Source: Mesorhizobium sp. ES1-1 (GTDB taxonomy: Bacteria; Pseudomonadota; Alphaproteobacteria; Rhizobiales; Rhizobiaceae). Taken from it: a stretch of 64,000 nt of DNA. Below, in pieces: positions 22,040 to 33,304 of this stretch (positions are counted from its first letter, which is position 1; the number at the start of each line of letters is the position of its first letter). The position numbers and the translations under genes are program-made. The stretch is from the NCBI RefSeq assembly GCF_020164785.1, contig NZ_JAIUGX010000012.1, forward strand, positions 62,001 to 126,000, in the 5' to 3' direction. Below the pieces are notes generated by a model. The model saw only the letters and a program-made list of their open reading frames with translations. It searched no databases and was not told where the DNA came from.

Positions 22040-23449
22040 TCAGGCCAATTCGGCGAACAGGCTATTGTAGCCCGTCTTCGTGATTCGTACCTTGATAATG
22101 TCGCCGATTTCGCCGGCCTTTTCATCAACAATAACCGGCTGCAGCCAAGGCGAGCGTCCAACCTTCTGGCCAGCCTGGCGGCCAGGCTTCTCGATCAGCG
22201 TGTCGATGACACCGCCGACCAGGCTCGACCCAAAATCCTGCTGCTGCTTGAGGAGCAGGGCCTGCAGCCTTTGCAGTCGCTCGTCCTTGACGGCTTCCGA
22301 CACATGATCGGCCATCTCGGCGCCCGGCGTGCCAGGGCGCGGCGAGTATTTGAATGAGAACGCCGAAGCGTAGTTCACCTGGCGCACCAGATCCATGGTC
22401 GCCTCGAAATCGGCTTCCGTCTCGCCGGGGAAACCGACGATGAAATCGCCCGAAAGCGCAATATCGGGCCGAGCGGCACGGATGCGGTCGAGCAGCGCCA
22501 GATAATCCTTCGCCGTATGCCGCCGGTTCATTGCCTTGAGGATGCGGTCGGACCCCGATTGCACCGGCAGATGGAGATAAGGCATCAGCGCCGCCAGGTC
22601 GCGGTGAGCCGCGATCAATTCGTCATCCATGTCGCGCGGATGGCTGGTGGTGTAACGCAACCGCGCAAGTCCGGGAATTTCGGCCAGCCTGGACAGCAGC
22701 CGGCCAAGACCCCACTCCTTGCCATCCGGCCCCTGCCCATGCCAGGCATTGACGTTCTGGCCAAGTAGGGTCACCTCGCGCACGCCGGCCTCGGCTAGGC
22801 GCTCTGCCTCGGCAACGATCCGCGCCGCCGGCCGCGATACTTCGGAGCCCCTGGTATAGGGCACCACGCAGAAGGTGCAGAATTTGTCGCATCCCTCCTG
22901 CACCGTAAGGAAAGCCGTGACACCGCGCTTGATGATTTCGGCGCGCTCGGGCCGCGGCAGGTGGTCGAACTTGTCTTCGATTGCGTAGTCGGTCTCGACG
23001 ATCTTCTCGCCGCCGCGCACACGCGCCAGCACGCTGGGCAGGCGGTGATAGGTCTGAGGGCCGATGACCAGATCGACGGCCGGCGAGCGGCGGATGATCT
23101 CGGCGCCTTCGGCCTGCGCCACGCAGCCTGCGACGCCGATCACCATCTCACGGCCCGTCGAGGCGCGTTCGGCCTTCATGTCGCGGATGCGGCCGAGTTC
23201 GGAATAGACCTTTTCGGCCGCTTTTTCCCTGATGTGGCAGGTGTTGAGCAGCACGAGATCGGCCTCGCCAATGGCATCGGTGGCGGTGTAGCCGTCGGCG
23301 GCCAACGCATCGCCCATGCGCTGTGAATCATAGACGTTCATCTGGCAGCCATAGGTCTTGATGAAGACCTTTTTCGCCGTCGTCGGGAGCATCGCGGGCT
23401 CCCCGGCTGCGCCGCCGATGCCGTCGCTTTTAATCGTGTTCAAGTCCAT
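22040..23449 (-). CDS. miaB: tRNA-2-methylthio-N6-isopentenyladenosine synthase
   Basis: About 469 residues. MiaB is a radical-SAM enzyme that adds the methylthio group to i6A37 of tRNAs reading UNN codons. The N-terminal domain ([22 protein letters not shown]) holds one Fe-S cluster, the radical-SAM CDKFCTFC the other, and a TRAM domain ends the protein. I chose ATG 23449; a TTG at 23479 would add ten residues. It lies 26 bases upstream of the PhoH-type gene. Confidence 0.95.
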
Positions 23450-23525
23450 CCGCCGGCTTCTAACGCCTTTTGATGACAAAAAACAGACGGATTCTCGGGA
23501 TGCGCTCTGCAGGCGCCAGGCTCCG

Positions 23526-24346: not shown

Positions 24347-24841
24347 CTAGCGAAGATCGCGGCGCATGACAAGCGCGCCGGTCGGTCCGTGCTCGGGCGA
24401 TCTGTAGTAATTCGGCCGCTTGCCCACCTCACGAAAGCCAAGCCGCCTGTAAAGCGCGATCGCAGCGGCGTTGGTCTCGTCAACCTCGAGGAACAGCGCC
24501 TCGGCGCGTTGCGCGTGCAGTTCGCGCAGCACCGCGTCCATCAGTTGCCAGCCCAGCCCCTGCCGGCGATGCGACCGCGCGACCGCGACGGTGAGGATTT
24601 CGCCCTCGCCGGCCGCGAGCCTTGCCAGCACGAAGCCGACAGGCGGCTTGGCGCCCTGCCCGGTTTCACGCGCTGCATAGCCGAACACGGTGCCCTGTTC
24701 GAGCAAGGCGGCGAATTCTCCGTCGCTCCAGGGGCGGACGAAATCCTCACTATGCAGCAGCGAGACCGCCTCGCTGTCGGCGATCTTCAACGGCTGCAGC
24801 GCGTAGTCCCGGCGGCGACCATGGAGGAAAGGAATGCGCAT
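24347..24841 (-). CDS. rimI: Ribosomal-protein-alanine N-acetyltransferase RimI
   Basis: 164 residues. A GNAT acetyltransferase; the acetyl-CoA loop reads RSHRRQGLGWQLM and the C-terminal strand LFLEVDETNAAAIALYRRLGFREVGKRPNYY matches RimI closely. It acetylates the N-terminal alanine of S18. Its ATG shares one base with the tsaB stop (TAATG), the usual tsaB-rimI coupling. Confidence 0.9.
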   Translation of the reverse strand: MRIPFLHGRRRDYALQPLKIADSEAVSLLHSEDFVRPWSDGEFAALLEQGTVFGYAARETGQGAKPPVGFVLARLAAGEGEILTVAVARSHRRQGLGWQLMDAVLRELHAQRAEALFLEVDETNAAAIALYRRLGFREVGKRPNYYRSPEHGPTGALVMRRDLR

Positions 24842-25518
24842 TAACTCCGTTGCCTCGACAAAATGAATCCGGCCTGGGGCTTTGCGTCGGCGCCGCGCAG
24901 ATAGAGCGGCTTCGGCCTCTCGCCGGCGCCTTTGGCGGCGGCGCGACGGGCGTAGGTCGCGATATCAGCGGTCGGTGTCCGAGGACCGACATCAAAACCA
25001 ACTCCGGTCGATGCAGCGATTTGCGCGGCGGCGGTGCCGGCCAGCACCACGGAATGCTTCGTCGCCATGGCGACCGCCTCAGGCAGTGCGATCACTGATG
25101 GACCGCAAGTCAGGTCTGACTTTTCGTTGTACAGAGCGGCGTGGATTTCCTCTCGTCCGGCATCGAGCGCGACGAGCACGGCGCGGCCCGGAAATGCCGA
25201 TGCCGCATCCGCGGCCAGCGCCTCGAGCGTCGTCACGCCGATGGCCGGGATGTTCAGAGCCAGCGCCAGCCCGCGCGCCGTCGAGACCCCGACGCGCAGG
25301 CCGGTAAACGACCCAGGGCCGACGGAGACGGCGATGGCGTCGAGACCGGCATAGTCCATTGCCGCCTCCTTCAGCGCTTCGGCAATGACAGCCATCAGGT
25401 GTTCGGCATGGCCCTTGCCGAGATCGAGCACCGAGCGGCCGAGCTCCCGATTCGCCGCTGCGTCATAGACGCAGGCGGCGCATAGATTGGCGGCACAGTC
25501 TATGGCAAGCAATTTCAT
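24841..25518 (-). CDS. tsaB: tRNA threonylcarbamoyladenosine biosynthesis protein TsaB
   Basis: 225 residues. TsaB is the non-catalytic ASKHA-fold partner of TsaD in making t6A37. The family marks MKLLAIDCA, GKGHAEHLM and VSVGPGSFTGLRVGVSTARGLA are all present. It is the first gene of the minus-strand run that ends at trmB; 109 bases without a gene separate it from the DUF1513 gene upstream. Confidence 0.93.
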   Translation of the reverse strand: MKLLAIDCAANLCAACVYDAAANRELGRSVLDLGKGHAEHLMAVIAEALKEAAMDYAGLDAIAVSVGPGSFTGLRVGVSTARGLALALNIPAIGVTTLEALAADAASAFPGRAVLVALDAGREEIHAALYNEKSDLTCGPSVIALPEAVAMATKHSVVLAGTAAAQIAASTGVGFDVGPRTPTADIATYARRAAAKGAGERPKPLYLRGADAKPQAGFILSRQRS

Positions 25519-25627: not shown

Positions 25628-26740
25628 CTAGGCGGCCGGCTCGATGCGCAGCATGTGGTTGTCCCACACATAGTCCGGTTCGGATCGCGTCATACCGCTT
25701 CTCTCGACGATCTCGCCGGCGCCGGTAGTGGCCATGAAGCCGGTTCTGTCTGGCGCAAGGCCGCAGACTTCGACCAGCGCGCGGTTTGAAACGGCGCGTC
25801 CGCTCGCCGCATCGAAGACAACGAGCGAATTGCCTTCCGGCGAGGAGACCGCCACGGTGCCGGCGGCAGGATTGGCGGAGACCGAGCCGATATAGTTGCG
25901 CAGGGCGGAAAGAATTTCCGACGGCATGTCCAGCAGTTGTAATTCCTTGCCGCGCGCGGCGCGGCCGACCAGCAACGGGCTGTCGGTTCCCGGTCCCCGG
26001 TACTGGCAACCGAACCAGACGGTGCCGGACCGGTCGGTATCCATGTGGCGGATGGACAATTGGTGCAGGGCCGACGGCAGTTCGTGCTTCTCGATCAGGT
26101 CGCCGGTGACTCGGTCGATCAGCACGTAAGACGGCTTCATGGTAGCGATGTTCAGTTCGGCGCGACCATAGTCCGGATGGGTCTCGATGCCGCCATTGGC
26201 AACGGCGATTGTCCTGCCGTCACCAAGCAGAAGCAATTCATGCGGCCCCATGCCGTAGGTCGGGAATTCGCCGACGCGGCTGAACTTCGCCCGCGCATCA
26301 TAGATTCCGACTACGCCGGCCGCGTTGTCGAAATCATTTTCGGTGGCGTAGAGCAAGGCGCCATCGGGGGAGAAAACGCCATGGCCGAAGAAATGGCGAC
26401 CGCTGATGCTGGCGATGGTGAGCGGCGCGGCGCGGCCGGTGTGATCGAAAACCACGGCGAAAGTGCCAGGCTGGCGGGCAAACACAACAGACCGCTTCGA
26501 TATGGGATCGAAGGTGACGTCGTGGCCCCGATCTGGCAGGTCGATCGCATGCAAGACCTTGCCGGCCTCGGACAGGACCGCGGCGCCGAAACTGCCGTCG
26601 CGCTTGACGAAAGCGGTGGCGAAGATGGCATCCGCCGCGAGCGTGGCTGCCCACGCCGTCGGTGTCATGGCCGAAGCGAGCCCGATGCCCGCCGCCTTGA
26701 GGAAATCGCGGCGATCTATCAGGGACGTTTTCAAGATCAA
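25628..26740 (-). CDS. DUF1513 protein, Tat-exported, iron-cluster associated
   Basis: About 370 residues. The N-terminus DRRDFLKAAGIGLA is a twin-arginine signal, so the protein is exported folded, to the periplasm. The rest consists of repeated WD-like strands (GHDVTFDP, GHGVFSPDG, HQLSIRHMD) suggesting a beta-propeller. DUF1513 proteins accompany imelysin and di-heme oxidoreductase genes in many Proteobacteria, hence a role in periplasmic iron handling; the activity is unknown. The start is probably TTG 26740, overlapping the TGA of the upstream imelysin gene by three bases (TTGA). It is the last gene of the cluster. Confidence 0.78.
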   Translation of the reverse strand: MILKTSLIDRRDFLKAAGIGLASAMTPTAWAATLAADAIFATAFVKRDGSFGAAVLSEAGKVLHAIDLPDRGHDVTFDPISKRSVVFARQPGTFAVVFDHTGRAAPLTIASISGRHFFGHGVFSPDGALLYATENDFDNAAGVVGIYDARAKFSRVGEFPTYGMGPHELLLLGDGRTIAVANGGIETHPDYGRAELNIATMKPSYVLIDRVTGDLIEKHELPSALHQLSIRHMDTDRSGTVWFGCQYRGPGTDSPLLVGRAARGKELQLLDMPSEILSALRNYIGSVSANPAAGTVAVSSPEGNSLVVFDAASGRAVSNRALVEVCGLAPDRTGFMATTGAGEIVERSGMTRSEPDYVWDNHMLRIEPAA

Positions 26741-27816
26741 TCCCCGTCCAGCGACGAGAAGCCGGCGGTCAGGCCGAATTCGGCGGTCAGCCTGGTGCCG
26801 ATCAGGGTCGACAGGCTAGAGGTGATCAGCGCGAAATGGTCGAGCGTGTCGCGCAGTCTCGGGTCGCTGAGCGTCTTGTCGATCGGACCCTGAACAGACT
26901 TCGCGGTTGTGACGCCGTTGACCAGCTGGATATGGATCGATTCCGCCATCCAGCGTGCGTCGGAGGGCAGCGCATCGCCAAGCTTCGAGGCCTGGAAGAG
27001 GTCGTCCATTCCCGACAGATTTCCGGCCAGCGACCTGGTGGTGTTGCGCGAGCGCCAGTAAATCGCCTGTTTCGGCCTGTCGGCATCCGGCCTGCCGCCG
27101 AAGAACGCTTTCAGGCGCACGTCGCGAACCATTTCGAGCTCATTGATGAAGACGCCGACCAGTTCGGTCACCGCTTCATTGCCGTCGCGGTAGAGCGCGT
27201 TTTGCGGCCCCGGATTGGCCCACAGAGCGGCAAACCCGTCCGGCTTGTTCCAGGCGTCGCTCACCTCGTCGGCCATGGTTTCGATGTTGCCTGCGATCGC
27301 GGCGCCGTAGGCGCAGCGGTAGGGATCGTCCCTTCCCGCCAATGTATCGGCGCCGTCGCCGTAAAGCACGAACTCGAGCGCGCCGAGCCCCTGCATGCCG
27401 ACACTCTTGCCGGCGAGCCGCTGCGGATCGGTGGCGGTCGGGTCCTTGTCCGCCATGGCCGCCTGCACCTGTCTCAGGCCGATGCTCTTGCGGTCGGGCC
27501 AGAAGAGCATGCGTTCCAGCCGGTTGTTCTCCTTGATCGGCCCGAAGGTGATGATTTCGGCCGATGACCAGGCATAGACAGTGGCGTCGAACGCCTTGCG
27601 TGCCACGTCGAGCTCCGCTTGTGAAGGCGAGGCGCAGAGCTTGCGCATCGAACCGGTCAAATTCCGGGCGTGATCATGCAGGCTGGCATAGGCCGGGCGG
27701 ACAAAGCCATCGATCGACCGCTGGATGATTTCGGAAGCCTTCACCGCTGCACTGGCCGGGAAGACGCCCAGCAAGGCCAAGGGAAAAACCAGGAGCAGCA
27801 CGAAACGCTTGAGCAT
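26737..27816 (-). CDS. Imelysin-family protein (second of two), periplasmic
   Basis: About 359 residues. A Sec signal peptide (MLKRFVLLLVFPLALLGVFPASA) exports it. The body is the all-helical imelysin fold also found in EfeO, IrpA and algal p7-type iron-binding proteins. The family motif GxHxxE reads GLGALEF here, so the histidine is missing. ATG 27816 shares one base with the stop of the di-heme gene (TGATG). Its task is inferred from the cluster: iron binding or delivery in the periplasm. Confidence 0.85.
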   Translation of the reverse strand: MLKRFVLLLVFPLALLGVFPASAAVKASEIIQRSIDGFVRPAYASLHDHARNLTGSMRKLCASPSQAELDVARKAFDATVYAWSSAEIITFGPIKENNRLERMLFWPDRKSIGLRQVQAAMADKDPTATDPQRLAGKSVGMQGLGALEFVLYGDGADTLAGRDDPYRCAYGAAIAGNIETMADEVSDAWNKPDGFAALWANPGPQNALYRDGNEAVTELVGVFINELEMVRDVRLKAFFGGRPDADRPKQAIYWRSRNTTRSLAGNLSGMDDLFQASKLGDALPSDARWMAESIHIQLVNGVTTAKSVQGPIDKTLSDPRLRDTLDHFALITSSLSTLIGTRLTAEFGLTAGFSSLDGD

Positions 27817-29417
27817 CAAAGGGACTCCAGGAATTTGATCAGCGCATCGCGATCAGCCGCGTCGGCGCCTGCGAAACCATCGCGTGCCTTGCGTGCCTCG
27901 CCATCATGCCACAGGATGGCCTCGGTCAAGCTGCGGGCGCGGCCGTCATGCAGGAAAAATTCATTGCCGTTGACAGTCGCGGTGAGACCTACGCCCCAGA
28001 GCGGCGGGGTGCGCCACTCACTGCCCGTCCCGTCGCCGACGGCCTGACCGTCCGCCAGACCGGGTCCCATGTCGTGCAGCAGGAAGTCGGAATAGGGCCA
28101 GATTAATTGGAAGGCCTGCGCCTTGTCGGGCGTATCGCGCCTGGTGACGAATTTGGGCGTGTGGCAGGACACGCAGCCGATCTCGTAGAAGATCTTCTTG
28201 CCGGCGAGAACCTGCCGTGCGTCGATATCGCGACGCGCCGGTACGGCCAGGTTTCGTGAGTAGAAAGTGACGAGATCCATCACCGGCGCCGGAGCCTCGG
28301 CAGGGCCGAGGCGCTCCTGAGCGCCGTTCGGCATTGCGAGGCACTTCACTTCCGCGGCTGTGCAATCGCCCCAGTGTTTCGGCTCTTCCGGCGTCGAGAT
28401 GCCGATGTCGCCGGCAAAGGCATCCGCCGCCTGCTGGCGAATCGACGCGGTCTGCGCCTTCCAGCCGAAACGGCCAATCGTCAACTCGCCGCCCGCGCCA
28501 TTACGAACGATGTTCGGCCTTCCGGAAATGCCATCACGGTTCCGGTCATCGGGATCGGCAAGGGCGAGAATATCCGCCGGCGCAATCTGCTCGATCAGGC
28601 CAAGGCCGATCATCGGCGGTGTCAGGCGTGGCGACAGCGTGGTGCGCGGATCAAGCGGCCCATAGGCGAGATCGATGGCCGAGTAGGTAGGTTTGCGCAG
28701 CTCGACCACTGCGCCGTCCGCCAGCGTCACCTTCCGTTCCTGGTAATCGACATGCATCCTGCCCTCGCCTCGCAGGCCGGGCACGGCCAGTTCCTGCAAT
28801 TGCGTGCCGTAGACCGGGTCGGGGAAGTTTAGCGCGCGCTTGTCGGCGATCTCCGCACGTTCTTCATCGTCGCTGGCCTCGCGCGCCAGTCGCAAGAACA
28901 TGGAGGTGGTGCCGGCGTCGCCCTGTGGAGGACGCCCGCGGCCATCCTTAAGGTGACAGTTCTGGCAGGCGCGCTCATTGAACAGCGGTCCGAGCCCGTC
29001 GGAGGCCTGCGTCGAAGACGGCGAGGACACCCAGTTCTTGCGGAAGAGCGCATTGCCGAGCTTGAAGGTGCTCTCCTCCTCGAAGCCGATATTGGCCGAG
29101 GATTGCGAGAAGGAGTCACGGCTGACGTCCTTTCGCGACGTGCCGGCGCCGCCCTGCATCAGCTCGAACTGTTCGGGCTTTGCAAAATCCGATGTCGGCC
29201 TGGTGATGGCGTTGACGCGCGCCTGGTCTTTCGCAGACAGGTCGGTGCGCGCGGTCGCAAGGACGGAGGGCTGGAGATCACCCGCGATAGCGGATGACGT
29301 GAGCGCCAACAAGAGGAAGACACCGCGCGGGCGTACCGATCCGGCGAGCGTTTTGCGAAGGGGCGGCAAGCCATCGGCTCGCCGCGTGCGGCGCATGAAT
29401 TCTAGCAGGCGCCGCAT
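27816..29417 (-). CDS. Di-heme oxidoreductase family protein, periplasmic c-type
   Basis: 533 residues. A signal or membrane segment at about 31-45 (GVFLLLALTSSAIAG) follows a basic stretch. Two CxxCH heme c sites are visible: CQNCH in NERACQNCHLKDGRG and CVSCH in GCVSCHTPKF. The family (sometimes called thiol oxidoreductase-like) is related to MauG/cytochrome c peroxidases and typically sits with imelysin genes; in this setting it may oxidise ferrous iron. The start is uncertain: ATG 29417 or ATG 29396, neither with a good Shine-Dalgarno. It begins 12 bases after bfr. Confidence 0.85.
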   Translation of the reverse strand: MRRLLEFMRRTRRADGLPPLRKTLAGSVRPRGVFLLLALTSSAIAGDLQPSVLATARTDLSAKDQARVNAITRPTSDFAKPEQFELMQGGAGTSRKDVSRDSFSQSSANIGFEEESTFKLGNALFRKNWVSSPSSTQASDGLGPLFNERACQNCHLKDGRGRPPQGDAGTTSMFLRLAREASDDEERAEIADKRALNFPDPVYGTQLQELAVPGLRGEGRMHVDYQERKVTLADGAVVELRKPTYSAIDLAYGPLDPRTTLSPRLTPPMIGLGLIEQIAPADILALADPDDRNRDGISGRPNIVRNGAGGELTIGRFGWKAQTASIRQQAADAFAGDIGISTPEEPKHWGDCTAAEVKCLAMPNGAQERLGPAEAPAPVMDLVTFYSRNLAVPARRDIDARQVLAGKKIFYEIGCVSCHTPKFVTRRDTPDKAQAFQLIWPYSDFLLHDMGPGLADGQAVGDGTGSEWRTPPLWGVGLTATVNGNEFFLHDGRARSLTEAILWHDGEARKARDGFAGADAADRDALIKFLESL

Positions 29418-29429
29418 TCCCGCATGCCC

Positions 29430-29915
29430 TTACTCCGCTTCGTCCGCCGATGCGGCGTTGAGCAGGCCGTATTTTTCCTCGCCGATCGAGGCAAGCAGGT
29501 CGAGCTGCGTCTCCAAGAAGTCGATGTGCCCTTCCTCGTCGGCCAGCAATTCCTCGAACAGCTTCATCGTCACGTAGTCGCCGGCCTCGTTGCAGATCTC
29601 GCGCGAACGCTTGTAGGCGGTACGCGCGTCATATTCCCCGGCCAGATCGGATTCGAGAACTTCCTTGACGTTCTGGCCGATGCGCAGCGGCGCCAGGGAT
29701 TGCAGGTTCGGATGGCCTTCCAGGAAGATGATGCGAGCCACGAGCCGGTCGGCATGGTGCATCTCCTCGATCGATTCAGCCCGCTCCTTCTTTGCCAGCT
29801 TGGCGTATCCCCAGTCCTCAAGCAGGCGGAAATGCACCCAATACTGATTGACCGCACCGAGCTCCAGAAAAAGAGCCTCATTAAGCCGCTCTATGATCCG
29901 CGCATCGCCCTTCAT
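29430..29915 (-). CDS. bfr: Bacterioferritin
   Basis: 161 residues, the standard length. Bfr forms a 24-mer shell storing ferric iron in the cytoplasm. Ferroxidase ligands E18, E51 and H54 are present, as is M52, the axial heme ligand, in [10 protein letters not shown]; later E94/E127/H130 equivalents lie in ESDLAGEY and [14 protein letters not shown] 29915 with GGGAG upstream is clear. Its first 35 bases overlap bfd, and it continues into the di-heme gene after 12 bases. Confidence 0.96.
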
Positions 29916-30192
29916 GATGTTTGCTCCCGTATTGGCCGCGCAGGCTCCTGACACGATCCAGGTGTGAAACGATATCCACGCCGCTGGTCTGCGAGCGGGC
30001 GTGATAATTTTCGGTGACCCGAATGATCGTTTCGACCACATTTGGGAAGCAGCCGCAACAGCGGCCCCGCTTTTGCATCGTGTGGTAGACTTTTGCCGGC
30101 ACGATGAGTTGCCAGGGGTCCTTGTCCAGCAGATCTATGATGGTCTGCTCGACCTCCTTCTCGGTTATGATGTTGCAATGGCAGATCAGCAT
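29881..30192 (-). CDS. bfd: Bacterioferritin-associated ferredoxin (BFD-like [2Fe-2S])
   Basis: About 103 residues. Bfd reduces the ferric core of Bfr to mobilise iron. The cluster ligands appear as C4, C6 (LICHCN) and C45/C48 (RCCGCFPN). The fold is complete by about residue 70; the remaining 30 residues ([19 protein letters not shown]...) extend across the bfr start in another frame, giving a 35-base overlap and probable translational coupling. I took ATG 30192 (MLICHC), since family members begin here. Confidence 0.88.
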
Positions 30193-30319
30193 CTTGGTGC
30201 CCGGCTGGCTGACGGCGCCTCTCACGCCGTGTGGCTTGTTCCTTCCTGGAGCCCATTTGAAACCGAGTCATACGGCTCCAGATCGGGCTCCAGCGTTATG
30301 ACTTACCGAAGCCTATGAT

Positions 30320-30337
30320 TTTCAGTTTTCACTGAAA
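30320..30337 (-). terminator. GAAA-tetraloop hairpin over the first imelysin stop codon
   Basis: On the minus strand TTTCAGT and ACTGAAA (7 bp) enclose a GAAA loop, an unusually stable tetraloop class; the TGA stop of the imelysin gene begins at the end of the 5' arm and runs into the loop. There is no U-tract after it. It may mark a processing or stability element between this gene and bfd-bfr. Confidence 0.35.
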
Positions 30338-31618
30338 GACCTTGTCCGGCGCGTCGAGGCTGTCGGACCCCTCGAAGGCGATGGCGTTGAGCTTCAGGGA
30401 GCCGACGGCACGTTCGATCGATTTGGTCTGGTCTATCAGCGCGTCGATCGCTGCCTGCACGGTAGCGTTGCCCTCGGCATTGCCTTCCGCGATCTGCTGG
30501 TCGTAGGCCTCGCCGGCCTCGGCCCGGGCCTTGATGGCCTCCATCTTGGCGACGGTGACGTCGAGCTTGTCCGACAGTTCCTTGTCGATGGCCGGATCGG
30601 CCGCCTTCACCATATCGGCGACCGAGGGGCCGGAGACGACGGTGCCGTCGAGCCTTGTATAGCTGGCATGGTAGGCGGCGCGGATACCGACAGCGTCGTT
30701 GAGATGAGAATTGTAGGTGTTGTCGGAAAAGCAGTCATGCTCCTCTTCCGGGTCGTGCAGTAGCAGACCGAGCTTCATGCGCTCGCCGGCCAGTTCGCCG
30801 TAGGAGAGCGAGCCCATTCCGGTGAAGATCGTCGCGACGGCGGTGTTCGGCTCGCCCTCGAGGAGGGCCTTGCGCGCGGCGCCATCCTGCTTCCAATCGC
30901 CGACCATCTCCTGAAGGTCGGAGACCAGGAGATCGGTGGCCGACTTCAGATACTGAGCGCGGCGATCGCAATTCCCGCCGGTGCAGTTCTTAAAATCATA
31001 GTCCGTGTAGGGACGCTCGCCGGCACCGGGTCCGGTGCCATGCAGGTCCTGGCCCCAAAGCAGGAATTCGATGGCGTGATAGCCAGTGGCGACATTGGCC
31101 TCAATGCCGCCGGCCCCCTGCAGCGTGCCGGACAGGAAATCCGGCGTGAGGTTCGTCGCATCGACCTTCTTGCCGTTGATCTCGATCTCCTTGTTGGCGA
31201 TCACATTGGCCGTATAGAGCGCGTTGGCGTCCGATTCGGCGCCGTAGCTCTTGGCGACATAATCGATCAGGCCTTCATCGAGCGGCCAGGAGTTCACTTT
31301 CCCTTCCCAGTCGTCGACGATTTTGTTGCCGAACCGGTAGACCTCGGTCTGCTGGTAGGGAACGCGCGAGGCCTTCCAAGCGTCGCGGGCGGCAGCGAGC
31401 GTCTCGGCCGACGGGCTTGCCAGCAGGGCGTCGACAGCCTTGTCGAGCGCCTGAGCGGTGGTCAGCGAATCCTCGTATTTTGCCAGCGCGATATCGGAGT
31501 AGGTCGTGATGACCGCCTTGACATCGGTTTGCGCCTTTGCCGGCAGCACAAATATCGCTGCCGTCAGCAGCGCCGTGGCGCCGATCGCCGCAAGCCTGCC
31601 GCCATATCGTGCCGTCAT
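30329..31618 (-). CDS. Imelysin-family iron-regulated periplasmic protein, IrpA-like
   Basis: About 429 residues. The signal peptide (LAAIGATALLTAAIFVLPAKA) is followed by the imelysin fold with an intact GxHxxE motif in GYHAIEFLLWGQD. Cys residues occur in NCTGGNCDRRAQY and in HDCF, a possible disulfide or metal site. Proteins of this type are iron-repressed and linked to iron uptake. ATG 31618 has GGAG upstream; an upstream in-frame ATG at 31741 adds 41 residues without a signal-peptide look. The Irr box at 31873-31889 lies 255 bases upstream. Confidence 0.88.
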   Translation of the reverse strand: MTARYGGRLAAIGATALLTAAIFVLPAKAQTDVKAVITTYSDIALAKYEDSLTTAQALDKAVDALLASPSAETLAAARDAWKASRVPYQQTEVYRFGNKIVDDWEGKVNSWPLDEGLIDYVAKSYGAESDANALYTANVIANKEIEINGKKVDATNLTPDFLSGTLQGAGGIEANVATGYHAIEFLLWGQDLHGTGPGAGERPYTDYDFKNCTGGNCDRRAQYLKSATDLLVSDLQEMVGDWKQDGAARKALLEGEPNTAVATIFTGMGSLSYGELAGERMKLGLLLHDPEEEHDCFSDNTYNSHLNDAVGIRAAYHASYTRLDGTVVSGPSVADMVKAADPAIDKELSDKLDVTVAKMEAIKARAEAGEAYDQQIAEGNAEGNATVQAAIDALIDQTKSIERAVGSLKLNAIAFEGSDSLDAPDKVFQ

Positions 31619-31872
31619 TATCGCTCTCCAGTTCCTGGGAAATTCCATAAATGGCGCGCGCGCAAAACCGCGCCGGGCCGTGGGGGTGCCGTGAGGCGCA
31701 AGACGTGACGCGCTGTTGCGCGGTCCGCGGAAGAAAGACATCCAAATGCCTCCAATCGAAAGGGTTCAAGGCCCAACCATTAAAGGGATGCGCCGGGGCG
31801 CGAGCCCTCATAAAGCGGCGCGGCTTCACGAAGTCAACGAAAATCGGCAGGAAAAGCCAATTGAAACAATAG

Positions 31873-31889
31873 TTTAGAATTATTCTAAA
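31873..31889. promoter_or_regulatory. Irr box (iron control element, ICE) between divergent genes
   Basis: TTTAGAATTATTCTAAA is a perfect palindrome and matches every position of the ICE consensus TTTRGAAYNRTTCYAAA for the heme-dependent regulator Irr of Rhizobiales; with flanks the symmetry covers 21 bp (31871-31891). It fills the 18-base spacer of a candidate minus-strand promoter (TTACAG 31895-31890, TATTGT 31871-31866) and overlaps the -10 of a candidate plus-strand promoter (TTGAAA 31861-31866, TCTAAA 31884-31889). It could thus control both the imelysin gene and the FAD reductase. The rest of the 432-base gap (31619-32050) shows nothing else. Confidence 0.82.
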
Positions 31890-32050
31890 CTGTAACTATC
31901 AACTTTATGCATGCTTTGGCCAGCTGCGCTGCGGAACTGTGCAGTTGACAGGCGCCATTCCGGGTGCGACCCGCAAACGCATCGTGGCGGCGGCGTCAGA
32001 CAATCGCGGCGTGGCGAGCGCAGCTACGATCGAATCGGGATTTGAATGCG

Positions 32051-33304
32051 ATGAAGAACGGGGTTGTCATTGTCGGTGCGGGTCATGCTGGCGTGCAGGC
32101 GGCCGCCAGTCTGCGCGAGGACGGCTATGACGGACCGGTGGTCCTCGTCAGCGACGAGAACGAACTGCCATACCACAAGCCGCCGCTCTCGAAGACTTTC
32201 ATCAAGGACGGGGATGCCAGGCCACAGCCCTTGCGTGGGGAAACCTTCTACACGAGCAGCGCCATCGACTTCCGCCCCGGCATCAGGATCGAGCGGATCG
32301 ATGCGGGGCGGCGGCTCCTGGACATTGCCGGTGGCGGGACGCTTGCCTTCGACCATCTGGTAATGGCGACAGGATCGCGCCCTCGCGTCCTGCCGCTGCC
32401 GGGTTCTGACCTGTCGGGCGTGGTGTCGCTTCGCTCGCTGAACGATGCACGGCAAATCCGCGAGCTCAGCGCGCGAAGTGACGAGGTCGTCATCCTCGGT
32501 GGAGGCTTCATCGGGCTTGAGATCGCAGCGACGTTGAAAGCCGCCGGCCGTGCGGTGACAGTGGTCGAAGCGGCTGATCGTCTGCTCGGCCGCGCCGTGG
32601 CGCCGGTGGTGGCGGGCCATGTCCGCCTGCGGCTGGAAGCAACCGGGGTGCGCATTCTCACCGGCACCACGATTGCAAGGCTGGAAGGGGAGAACGGCCA
32701 TGTCGCGGCCGCGATAACATCGACCGGAGAAAGACTGCCGGCGCACATGGTCATCGTCGGCGTCGGGGCCGTGCCCAATGTCGAACTGGCGCAGGAAGCC
32801 GGCCTCGCCATCGCCAATGGCATCCGCGTCGATCACCAGATGCGCAGTTCGGCGCCGCAGATCCTCGCCATAGGCGACGCGGCCTCCTACCGGCACTGGT
32901 TCACCGGGGGTGACGTGCGACTGGAATCGGTACAGAACGCCACCGATCAGGCGCGGCTCGCCGCGCGCACCATATCAGGCCATGTGGATGCATACTCGGC
33001 CGTGCCGTGGTTCTGGTCCGACATCGGCGACATGAAGCTGCAGATGGTTGGGCTGACCGCCGGCGGCGACAGCCATGTCGTGCTGGGCGACCTGCCAGAG
33101 AACAAGTTCTCGATCTATCACTTCGCGGGAGACCGCCTGCTCGGCATCGAATCGGTCAATCGTCCCGGCGACCACATGCTCGGCCGCAAGATGCTTGGCG
33201 CGGGCTTCTCGCCCAGGCCCGAGACAGTGGCCCTCGGCCCAGAAGGGCTGAAAGCGGCCTTGGCCACGTTTCAGCAGAATGGGGCGGCTAGGGCTGCGGG
33301 CTAG
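32051..33304 (+). CDS. FAD-dependent ferredoxin/rubredoxin reductase-type oxidoreductase
   Basis: 417 residues of the putidaredoxin reductase/rhodocoxin reductase family, which passes electrons from NAD(P)H via FAD to a small iron-sulfur protein. The FAD-binding GVVIVGAGHAGVQAA is at residues 4-18, the NAD-binding VVILGGGFIGLEIAA at about 148-163, and the second FAD motif ILAIGDAA at about 270. A C-terminal reductase dimer domain follows. ATG 32051 begins right before the Rossmann motif. No ferredoxin or P450 gene is next to it, so the partner is unknown; BFD-type ferredoxin across the gap is one candidate. Confidence 0.88.
   Translation: MKNGVVIVGAGHAGVQAAASLREDGYDGPVVLVSDENELPYHKPPLSKTFIKDGDARPQPLRGETFYTSSAIDFRPGIRIERIDAGRRLLDIAGGGTLAFDHLVMATGSRPRVLPLPGSDLSGVVSLRSLNDARQIRELSARSDEVVILGGGFIGLEIAATLKAAGRAVTVVEAADRLLGRAVAPVVAGHVRLRLEATGVRILTGTTIARLEGENGHVAAAITSTGERLPAHMVIVGVGAVPNVELAQEAGLAIANGIRVDHQMRSSAPQILAIGDAASYRHWFTGGDVRLESVQNATDQARLAARTISGHVDAYSAVPWFWSDIGDMKLQMVGLTAGGDSHVVLGDLPENKFSIYHFAGDRLLGIESVNRPGDHMLGRKMLGAGFSPRPETVALGPEGLKAALATFQQNGAARAAG

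Follow-up and report, generated by a model that had tools for sequence, protein, structure and literature searches.

We examined a 64,000-nucleotide (nt) window of Mesorhizobium sp. ES1-1 (contig NZ_JAIUGX010000012.1, positions 62,001 to 126,000), focusing on a minus-strand cluster in which two imelysin genes, a di-haem oxidoreductase (DHOR) gene and a DUF1513 gene are joined by the bacterioferritin gene bfr and a bfd-like ferredoxin gene, and on a predicted RNA hairpin in its leader that recurs before genes for iron-sulphur (Fe-S) cluster assembly. The map of open reading frames (ORFs) places the six genes in the following order:

30329..31618, minus strand: imelysin 1 (M75; PF09375, E 2.5e-89), in a frame open to 31741
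29881..30192, minus strand: Bfd-like [2Fe-2S] ferredoxin (position and CxC...CxxC cysteines; Fer2_BFD match weak)
29430..29915, minus strand: bfr, bacterioferritin (TIGR00754, 181.7 bits against a curated cut-off of 125.55)
27816..29417, minus strand: DHOR (PF06537, E 1.9e-96)
26737..27819, minus strand: imelysin 2 (PF09375, E 6.6e-48)
25628..26740, minus strand: DUF1513 protein (PF07433, E 8.9e-110)

The bfd and bfr genes overlap by 35 nt, bfr and the DHOR gene are 12 nt apart, imelysin 1 and bfd are separated by 136 nt, and overlaps of 4 nt link the DHOR gene to imelysin 2 and imelysin 2 to the DUF1513 gene. ORFs and domain matches thus bear out an earlier note on this DNA as to strand, order and spacing. 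Judged by its model score the Bfr is securely identified; it is nearest to solved bacterioferritins (best E 1.2e-83) in a comparison with solved structures and has at residue 52 a Met, which we take to be the haem ligand. The ferredoxin scores 13.5 bits against Fer2_BFD, under the Pfam cut-off of 26, and a relative's Bfd (locus L309), better at 20.4 bits, is likewise under it; position and cysteine pattern are all that identify the protein, which we therefore call Bfd-like. Imelysin 1 is predicted, by eye, to be secreted. The adjacency of two imelysins to a di-haem peroxidase-like gene is that of an imelysin/EfeB-like operon.

A protein search with the DHOR yielded 224 matches, the best 80 of which, nearly all labelled Mesorhizobium, are termed here the named loci; the nearest named DHOR relatives of our genome are from this genus. 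The order imelysin 1-bfd-bfr-DHOR-imelysin 2-DUF1513 is kept in 78 of the 80, the exceptions being L058, which keeps bfd without bfr, and L112, a short contig without imelysin 1. Hence, the gene order is not due to chance, and the comparison across Mesorhizobium proposed by the earlier note indicates that the arrangement is conserved, is by itself ordinary for the genus and is not a quirk of one genome. In the wider family (Rhizobiaceae), 104 of 151 genomes have a DHOR match, and we examined 94 clusters, excluding our own genome and nine with a short C-terminal match. Among these, 31 contain bfd and/or bfr (28 both genes with all neighbours, one bfd only, two bfr only) and 63 contain neither, in line with the earlier view of bfd-bfr as an insertion into the imelysin/DHOR/imelysin/DUF1513 set. 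A quick DHOR tree of 100 rows requires 7 changes of the bfd/bfr label, at least 3 of them on starred branches; a single clade of 34 (support 89, not starred) holds 33 of the 40 bearing rows, suggesting that the insertion is old there, with possible further gains or losses elsewhere. Loss of bfr with retention of Bfd is seen in L058 (Mesorhizobium sp. B2-4-15) and in L152 (same-genus genome G073, in which no bfr was found at 1e-20); in both, about 110 nt remain between bfd and the DHOR gene where bfr is missing.

The leader hairpin and its distribution

Upstream of imelysin 1 we recognized the following elements:

31619..31741, minus strand: short leader ORF (MSFFRGPR...), in frame with imelysin 1, of putative function
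31749..31786, minus strand: RNA leader element, with outer stem CCUUUAAU/AUUGGAGG predicted to lie over the Shine-Dalgarno sequence GGAGG and an inner hairpin with loop CCUUGAA (covariance model 34.6 bits, E 2.5e-9)
31762..31774, minus strand: core hairpin GGG-CCUUGAA-CCC (same core before sufB, same loop before sufA)
31790..31801, minus strand: optional variable hairpin GCGCC..GGCGC (by eye in an alignment of 40 leaders; some relatives are without it)
31809..31837, minus strand: promoter-like TTGACT-N17-TTTATG, 35 nt downstream of the box below
31873..31889, no strand assigned: iron control element (ICE) box TTTAGAATTATTCTAAA, the Irr operator, a perfect palindrome with 0 mismatches to TTTAGAANNNTTCTAAA

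Aligned leaders follow the scheme CCUUUGAU-GUCU-GGG-CCUUGAA-CCC-NUUCG-AUUGGAGG, which RNAalifold folds into an outer stem covering the Shine-Dalgarno sequence and an inner hairpin. We prefer this RNA reading to one as a micro-ORF, since the frame WALNPFDWR with its early stop is not kept in relatives and changes in the stems compensate each other. By a crude survey (first ATG, GTG or TTG 3-12 nt after GGAG), the leader ORF ends within 60 nt of the imelysin 1 start in 53 of 102 cases and runs on in frame in 36. Neither the operon leader nor the sufB leader matches an Rfam 15 family at its gathering score; the former has three sub-threshold matches and the latter none. The best of these, a KDPG-aldolase RNA match just before imelysin 1 (31625-31674, minus strand; 22.3 bits against a gathering score of 54.6, E 0.067), lies outside the hairpin and is probably due to chance. 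A pseudoknot of the loop's CCUU with the Shine-Dalgarno sequence, which fits some sufA leaders by eye only, was set aside.

A covariance model built from 64 leaders (R1) recovers three strong matches in our own genome: the sufB leader (38.0 bits), this operon (34.6) and the sufA leader (33.1), with the next match at 17.1. The exact core occurs twice, in this operon and 20 nt before the sufB start; the sufA leader, whose protein is SufA above the curated cut-off, has a variant stem GCAGG/CCUGC with the same loop. Sixteen weaker matches (at most 17.1 bits) were dropped; the 11 that could be placed all lie in open frames of 181-612 codons. With one mismatch allowed, the core gave 21 matches in all against 15 for a reversed control and was therefore set aside. 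Across the family, the pattern GGGCCTTNAACCCN{4,14}GGAG is found in 82 of 151 genomes (2 matches for the reversed control) and R1 at 1e-5 in 109. The 102 distinct pattern matches in the examined loci, sorted by N-terminal resemblance, precede A-type carriers (43), sufB (21), a gene X (8), genes resembling iron-transport substrate-binding proteins (SBPs; 7), bfd (7), genes with the same leader type (9) and others (7). Single members checked score as SufB, SufA and ErpA above curated cut-offs, and the transporter-like protein matches SBP_bac_6. The distance from hairpin core to start codon is 14-24 nt in all classified matches. Class-wide, the pattern matches 6 of 289 genomes, compared with 8 matches of the control, and R1 matches 5 of 279, namely our own, G339 (same order, SBP-like), G333 (outside the order, before mnmA), G237 (inside a long open frame) and G215.

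Gene X codes for a protein of 165-200 residues with CxxCP, CxxxC and further cysteines that matches no Pfam family in the two members tested. It is first in its unit in several genera, lies between hairpin and next gene in L120, L124, L127, L142, L135, L195, L304 and L311, and is not found at that place in the window.

Within the 64 leaders, covariation exceeds that of shuffles: 51 double-change cells were counted against 27.9, the score is 0.241 against 0.106, none of 500 shuffles being as high on either measure, paired cells lie above all 500 shuffles and pair types above all but 2. We also chose sufB leaders by protein rather than by hairpin. Of 121 genomes, 118 have a SufB match, and we inspected the leaders of the 30 best loci. 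The loop [CU]CUUGA[AC] or CCUUUAA is present in 24 of them. In 26, at least six pairs (counting G-U) form a stem that closes a 7-nt loop and ends 16-17 nt upstream of the start; stems or loops are altered in the remaining four (L378, L392, L395, L398). In L396 the GGG/CCC core is replaced by a compensated stem, GCCGAA/UUCGGC, with the loop CCUUGAA kept. By comparison across these genomes, then, a predicted hairpin whose 7-nt loop hardly varies, being CCUU(G/U)A(A/C) in most cases, is common to genes for iron storage and Fe-S assembly. It could be a passive translation aid, keeping the Shine-Dalgarno sequence open or stabilizing the mRNA with no specific factor, as its place just before that sequence and the narrow core-to-start range would allow. 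However, the loop's survival in L396 and the presence of 95 of the 102 matches in iron, Fe-S or same-leader places make this quite improbable.

The ICE box and the extent of the transcription unit

The box at 31873-31889 is the window's only match with up to three mismatches to TTTAGAANNNTTCTAAA (TTTAGAA-N3-TTCTAAA), a consensus that we take to be the Irr operator. Upstream of imelysin 1 it is kept with 0 mismatches in all 79 named loci having that gene, in which the best of four permuted control palindromes has 4. Our own genome has one further perfect and three imperfect matches; three of these presumably neighbour mbfA, an nfuA/fssA-like gene and a suf operon (first gene a cysteine desulphurase), and the fourth is likely due to chance. 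A promoter-like pair of the type TTGAC-N17-TTTAT(G) is present in 77 of the 79 named leaders and, among the 46 family leaders that have an ICE-like box, in 19, the spacer being 17 in 92 of the 97 found; on this basis the ICE precedes the predicted start by about 80 nt.

ICE and leader both stand upstream of the first gene, imelysin 1. Across 109 gaps between imelysin 1 and bfd we found no ICE (up to three mismatches) and no leader loop motif, and a terminator-like stem in 4; a promoter and terminator scan of this gap in the window listed nothing, and the bfr-DHOR gap has a median of 12 nt in the named loci. Hence, the six genes likely form one Irr-controlled transcription unit. Of the earlier note's suggestions, cotranscription thereby becomes likely. 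The gene facing imelysin 1 bears on the extent of the unit:

31964..33304, plus strand: ferredoxin-reductase-like flavoprotein (Pyr_redox_2 plus Reductase_C), divergent from imelysin 1 across the ICE box

It is found in 79 of 80 named loci against 13 of 94 family loci, and the flavoprotein might possibly act as electron donor for Bfd. A plainer account would see an ordinary cluster, in which bfd-bfr has a separate internal promoter and the ICE serves the first genes only or the divergent reductase. The 136-nt gap, the position of the ICE between divergent genes and the near-constant reductase of the named loci agree with it, but the 109 gaps without ICE or leader loop, with terminator-like stems in just 4, and the fact that loci in which no reductase was found (L188, L198, L207) still have an ICE with 0-1 mismatches render it unlikely.

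Both ICE and hairpin tend to accompany bfr. Of the 94 family clusters 88 have at least 1 kb upstream, and among these an ICE with at most one mismatch is present in 23 of 28 clusters with bfd/bfr versus 4 of 60 without, and the hairpin in 21 of 28 versus 3 of 60. When picked by the hairpin pattern, stand-alone bfd genes have an ICE in 6 of 7 cases and SBP-like genes in 7 of 7, 106-119 nt upstream of the hairpin. Thirty bfr loci chosen by the Bfr protein comprise 15 stand-alone and 15 clustered ones, and in none of the latter does an ICE or hairpin lie within 500 nt before bfd. These leaders hint that the ICE-hairpin module can serve bfd-bfr units and is shared by the imelysin genes of this clade. 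The earlier note had stressed that uptake and storage, normally regulated oppositely, would here be joined. This exception to the rule is less supported than the link itself: clusters with bfd/bfr mostly have the ICE-hairpin leader, those without mostly do not, and some stand-alone bfd-bfr units carry it, a pattern, seen largely in one clade, that would be in keeping with imelysin genes having come under control of the bfr type. Upstream of bfd, L246 and L265 have two tandem ICE-like boxes, 26 nt apart, followed by the hairpin leader. In bfr-less clusters such as L141, L169, L171, L182 and similar ones, the imelysin 1 promoters share TTCTAAACTA(T/G)A and then TTTGACAC, together with half an ICE box, perhaps the site of another regulator.

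A two-layer reading and the candidate readers of the loop

We consider it rather probable that this is an iron-responsive six-gene unit with a transcriptional layer set by Irr and the ICE and a translational layer set by a hairpin that a trans-acting factor reads. In the first layer, as the box suggests, Irr would bind the ICE upstream of the conserved promoter. In the second, the hairpin, itself evident from comparison, would act at the ribosome-binding site; the outer stem, which would cover the Shine-Dalgarno sequence, would gate the leader ORF and, through coupling, imelysin 1 as well. Since sufB, sufA/erpA, an iron-transporter-like gene and some bfd-bfr units carry the same hairpin at their ribosome-binding sites, a factor reading the loop would adjust iron storage, the handling of iron in the periplasm and Fe-S assembly in concert, at the level of translation. 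The hairpin would then be a short RNA handle on the iron circuit in many genera, and the operon order one target of a larger regulon. Two published observations are counted in favour: the rise of Bfr and FbpA in an hfq mutant of Sinorhizobium meliloti 2011 (PMC3484140), and a Brucella study of Irr by DNA affinity purification sequencing, whose seven targets include an iron transporter and a 2Fe-2S binding protein (PMC10374146).

Several observations weigh against this two-layer reading. As to the hairpin, the outer stem covering the Shine-Dalgarno sequence was found in the operon leaders and not seen in the suf leaders, and 42 of the 151 family genomes have no R1 match at 1e-5. Pairs showing a double change are no more numerous than in shuffles (409 of 500), and the structure slid by three columns still scores 0.182 versus 0.241. 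R1 and the pattern were built on GGGCCTTNAACCC, making the constancy of the core in the 64-leader results one by construction; the protein-chosen SufB set is the only one free of this bias, but it consists of the 30 closest SufB and leans to near kin. Single sufB stems are not significant, 1-16% of shuffled leaders giving equal length, so that what counts is the recurrence of position and loop from leader to leader. As to Irr, an ICE about 80 nt upstream of the start is compatible with control of either sign, since Irr represses or activates according to box position in the portion of a review at hand (PMC7762939), while excerpts on Bradyrhizobium japonicum describe bfr and mbfA as Irr-repressed (PMC4902296). 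Passages of the Brucella study name no imelysin or bfr (PMC10374146). An internal bfd promoter may also exist. Finally, the link of bfr with ICE and hairpin comes largely from one clade: an independent-contrast test (tree-independent pairs) of bfr against ICE or hairpin was not significant, with too few pairs, and the 15 protein-chosen stand-alone bfd-bfr units have the hairpin in 4 (by regular expression and covariance model alike) and an ICE (at most two mismatches, within 500 nt) in 6.

Within the two-layer reading, what reads the loop might be an Hfq-dependent small RNA (sRNA) pairing with CCUUGAA, a rhizobial counterpart of RyhB. That the loop is kept while stems vary would suit such a partner, and in passages of PMC3484140 an hfq mutant of Sinorhizobium meliloti 2011 accumulates Bfr and FbpA, both of hairpin-target types, although the same passages cite the opposite Bfr change for strain 1021. 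A 7-nt loop gives little pairing, the presence of the hairpin before mnmA in another order is left unexplained, and a search for the motif TTCAAGG in three ICE loci found no sRNA. This main contender is possible, if on the doubtful side.

The other contender takes its cue from mnmA. We dropped the view of the G333 match as due to chance after searching its own family, in which R1 at 1e-3 is found in 80 of 101 genomes and, in all 30 best-scoring loci, the loop begins about 24 nt before the mnmA start (two of the products were checked and are MnmA above the cut-off). According to excerpts of PMC11784392, MnmA thiolates U34 in tRNA-Lys, -Glu and -Gln, is supplied with sulphur by a cysteine desulphurase and can accept a [4Fe-4S] cluster of disputed role. 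As the nine tRNAs in the examined loci include no tRNA-Gln, -Lys or -Glu gene, E. coli K-12 tRNAs served as the yardstick, with anticodon loops, read from the genome, of CUUUUAA (Lys), CUUUCAC (Glu) and UUUUGAU (Gln). By this measure the loop of the hairpin, CCUU(G/U/A)A(A/C), agrees at tRNA positions 32, 34, 35 and 37, varies at 36 and 38 as tRNAs do, and has C for U at 33; apart from position 33, the stem of at least five pairs with a 7-nt loop resembles an anticodon arm in its geometry. This suggests a tRNA-mimic operator. Downstream of the operon lie a miaB-like gene (22040-23479, minus strand; named by resemblance) and tsaB (24841-25518, minus strand; above cut-off), both concerned with tRNA position 37; their place beside an anticodon-arm-like element is probably a coincidence.

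The hairpin could be read by a protein that binds anticodon arms, with MnmA the likeliest candidate and TtcA or a tRNA synthetase as others, and with free MnmA blocking translation and unthiolated tRNA titrating it. The loop, Y-C-U-U-N-A-(A/C), close to the E. coli Lys, Glu and Gln loops, the hairpin at the ribosome-binding site of mnmA itself and the dependence of the enzyme on the sulphur supply speak for it; the C at position 33, the confinement of the mnmA matches to one family of close relatives and the absence of mnmA from the three strong matches of our own genome speak against it, and we put it forward as tentative and quite possibly wrong. In the extended form of this reading, the mRNAs of sufB, sufA, bfd-bfr and the imelysin-bfr operon in Rhizobiaceae would all be bound by MnmA, at the CCUUGAA hairpin of their ribosome-binding sites, the anticodon-arm mimic being a counterpart of the animal iron-responsive element (IRE) that couples translation to unthiolated tRNA, and mnmA would be autoregulated by the same hairpin in another order; as a whole we hold this to be rather unlikely. 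If MnmA does read the hairpin, tRNA thiolation would sense Fe-S and sulphur status and tie decoding to iron storage.

Comparison with known systems

In the IRE/IRP1 system of animals, small hairpins near the translation start of storage and iron-use genes are read by a trans-acting factor. The present hairpin, bacterial and with loop CCUUGAA instead of CAGUGN, has a similar place, and here too a trans-acting factor would act. The operator of the E. coli thrS gene is a mimic of a tRNA anticodon arm. Like it, the hairpin resembles an anticodon arm next to the ribosome-binding site and, in one order, precedes the gene of a tRNA enzyme; unlike it, its loop resembles the substrates of MnmA and its targets in Rhizobiaceae are iron and Fe-S genes. 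We know of no established post-transcriptional iron circuit of the RyhB or IRE type in alphaproteobacteria. The search for a RyhB homologue is called an open task in passages of a 2012 S. meliloti paper (PMC3484140), and excerpts of a Pelagibacter paper propose cold-shock proteins instead (PMC2864753). The alphaproteobacterial motifs serC, speF, suhB, ybhL and metA, as given in part of PMC1273637, are likewise structured leaders of the same class, some at ribosome-binding sites, with targets that differ from those found here. No prior description of the hairpin appeared in the literature searched for it, and judged on sequence comparison the element and its target set seem to be new.

At the level of transcription, the ICE box is shared with the Irr-repressed bfr and mbfA of rhizobia, as far as portions of PMC4902296 and PMC7762939 describe them; unlike in those cases, the box here precedes the predicted start by about 80 nt and would by itself govern six genes. 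The closest parallel in gene content is the Pseudomonas aeruginosa operon PA4370-PA4373, which according to excerpts of PMC3143127 likewise joins two imelysins to an EfeB-like (DUF1111-type) di-haem gene in one iron-regulated operon. That operon is regulated by Fur, whereas the Mesorhizobium cluster includes bfd-bfr, has an Irr box in front and would add an RNA leader.

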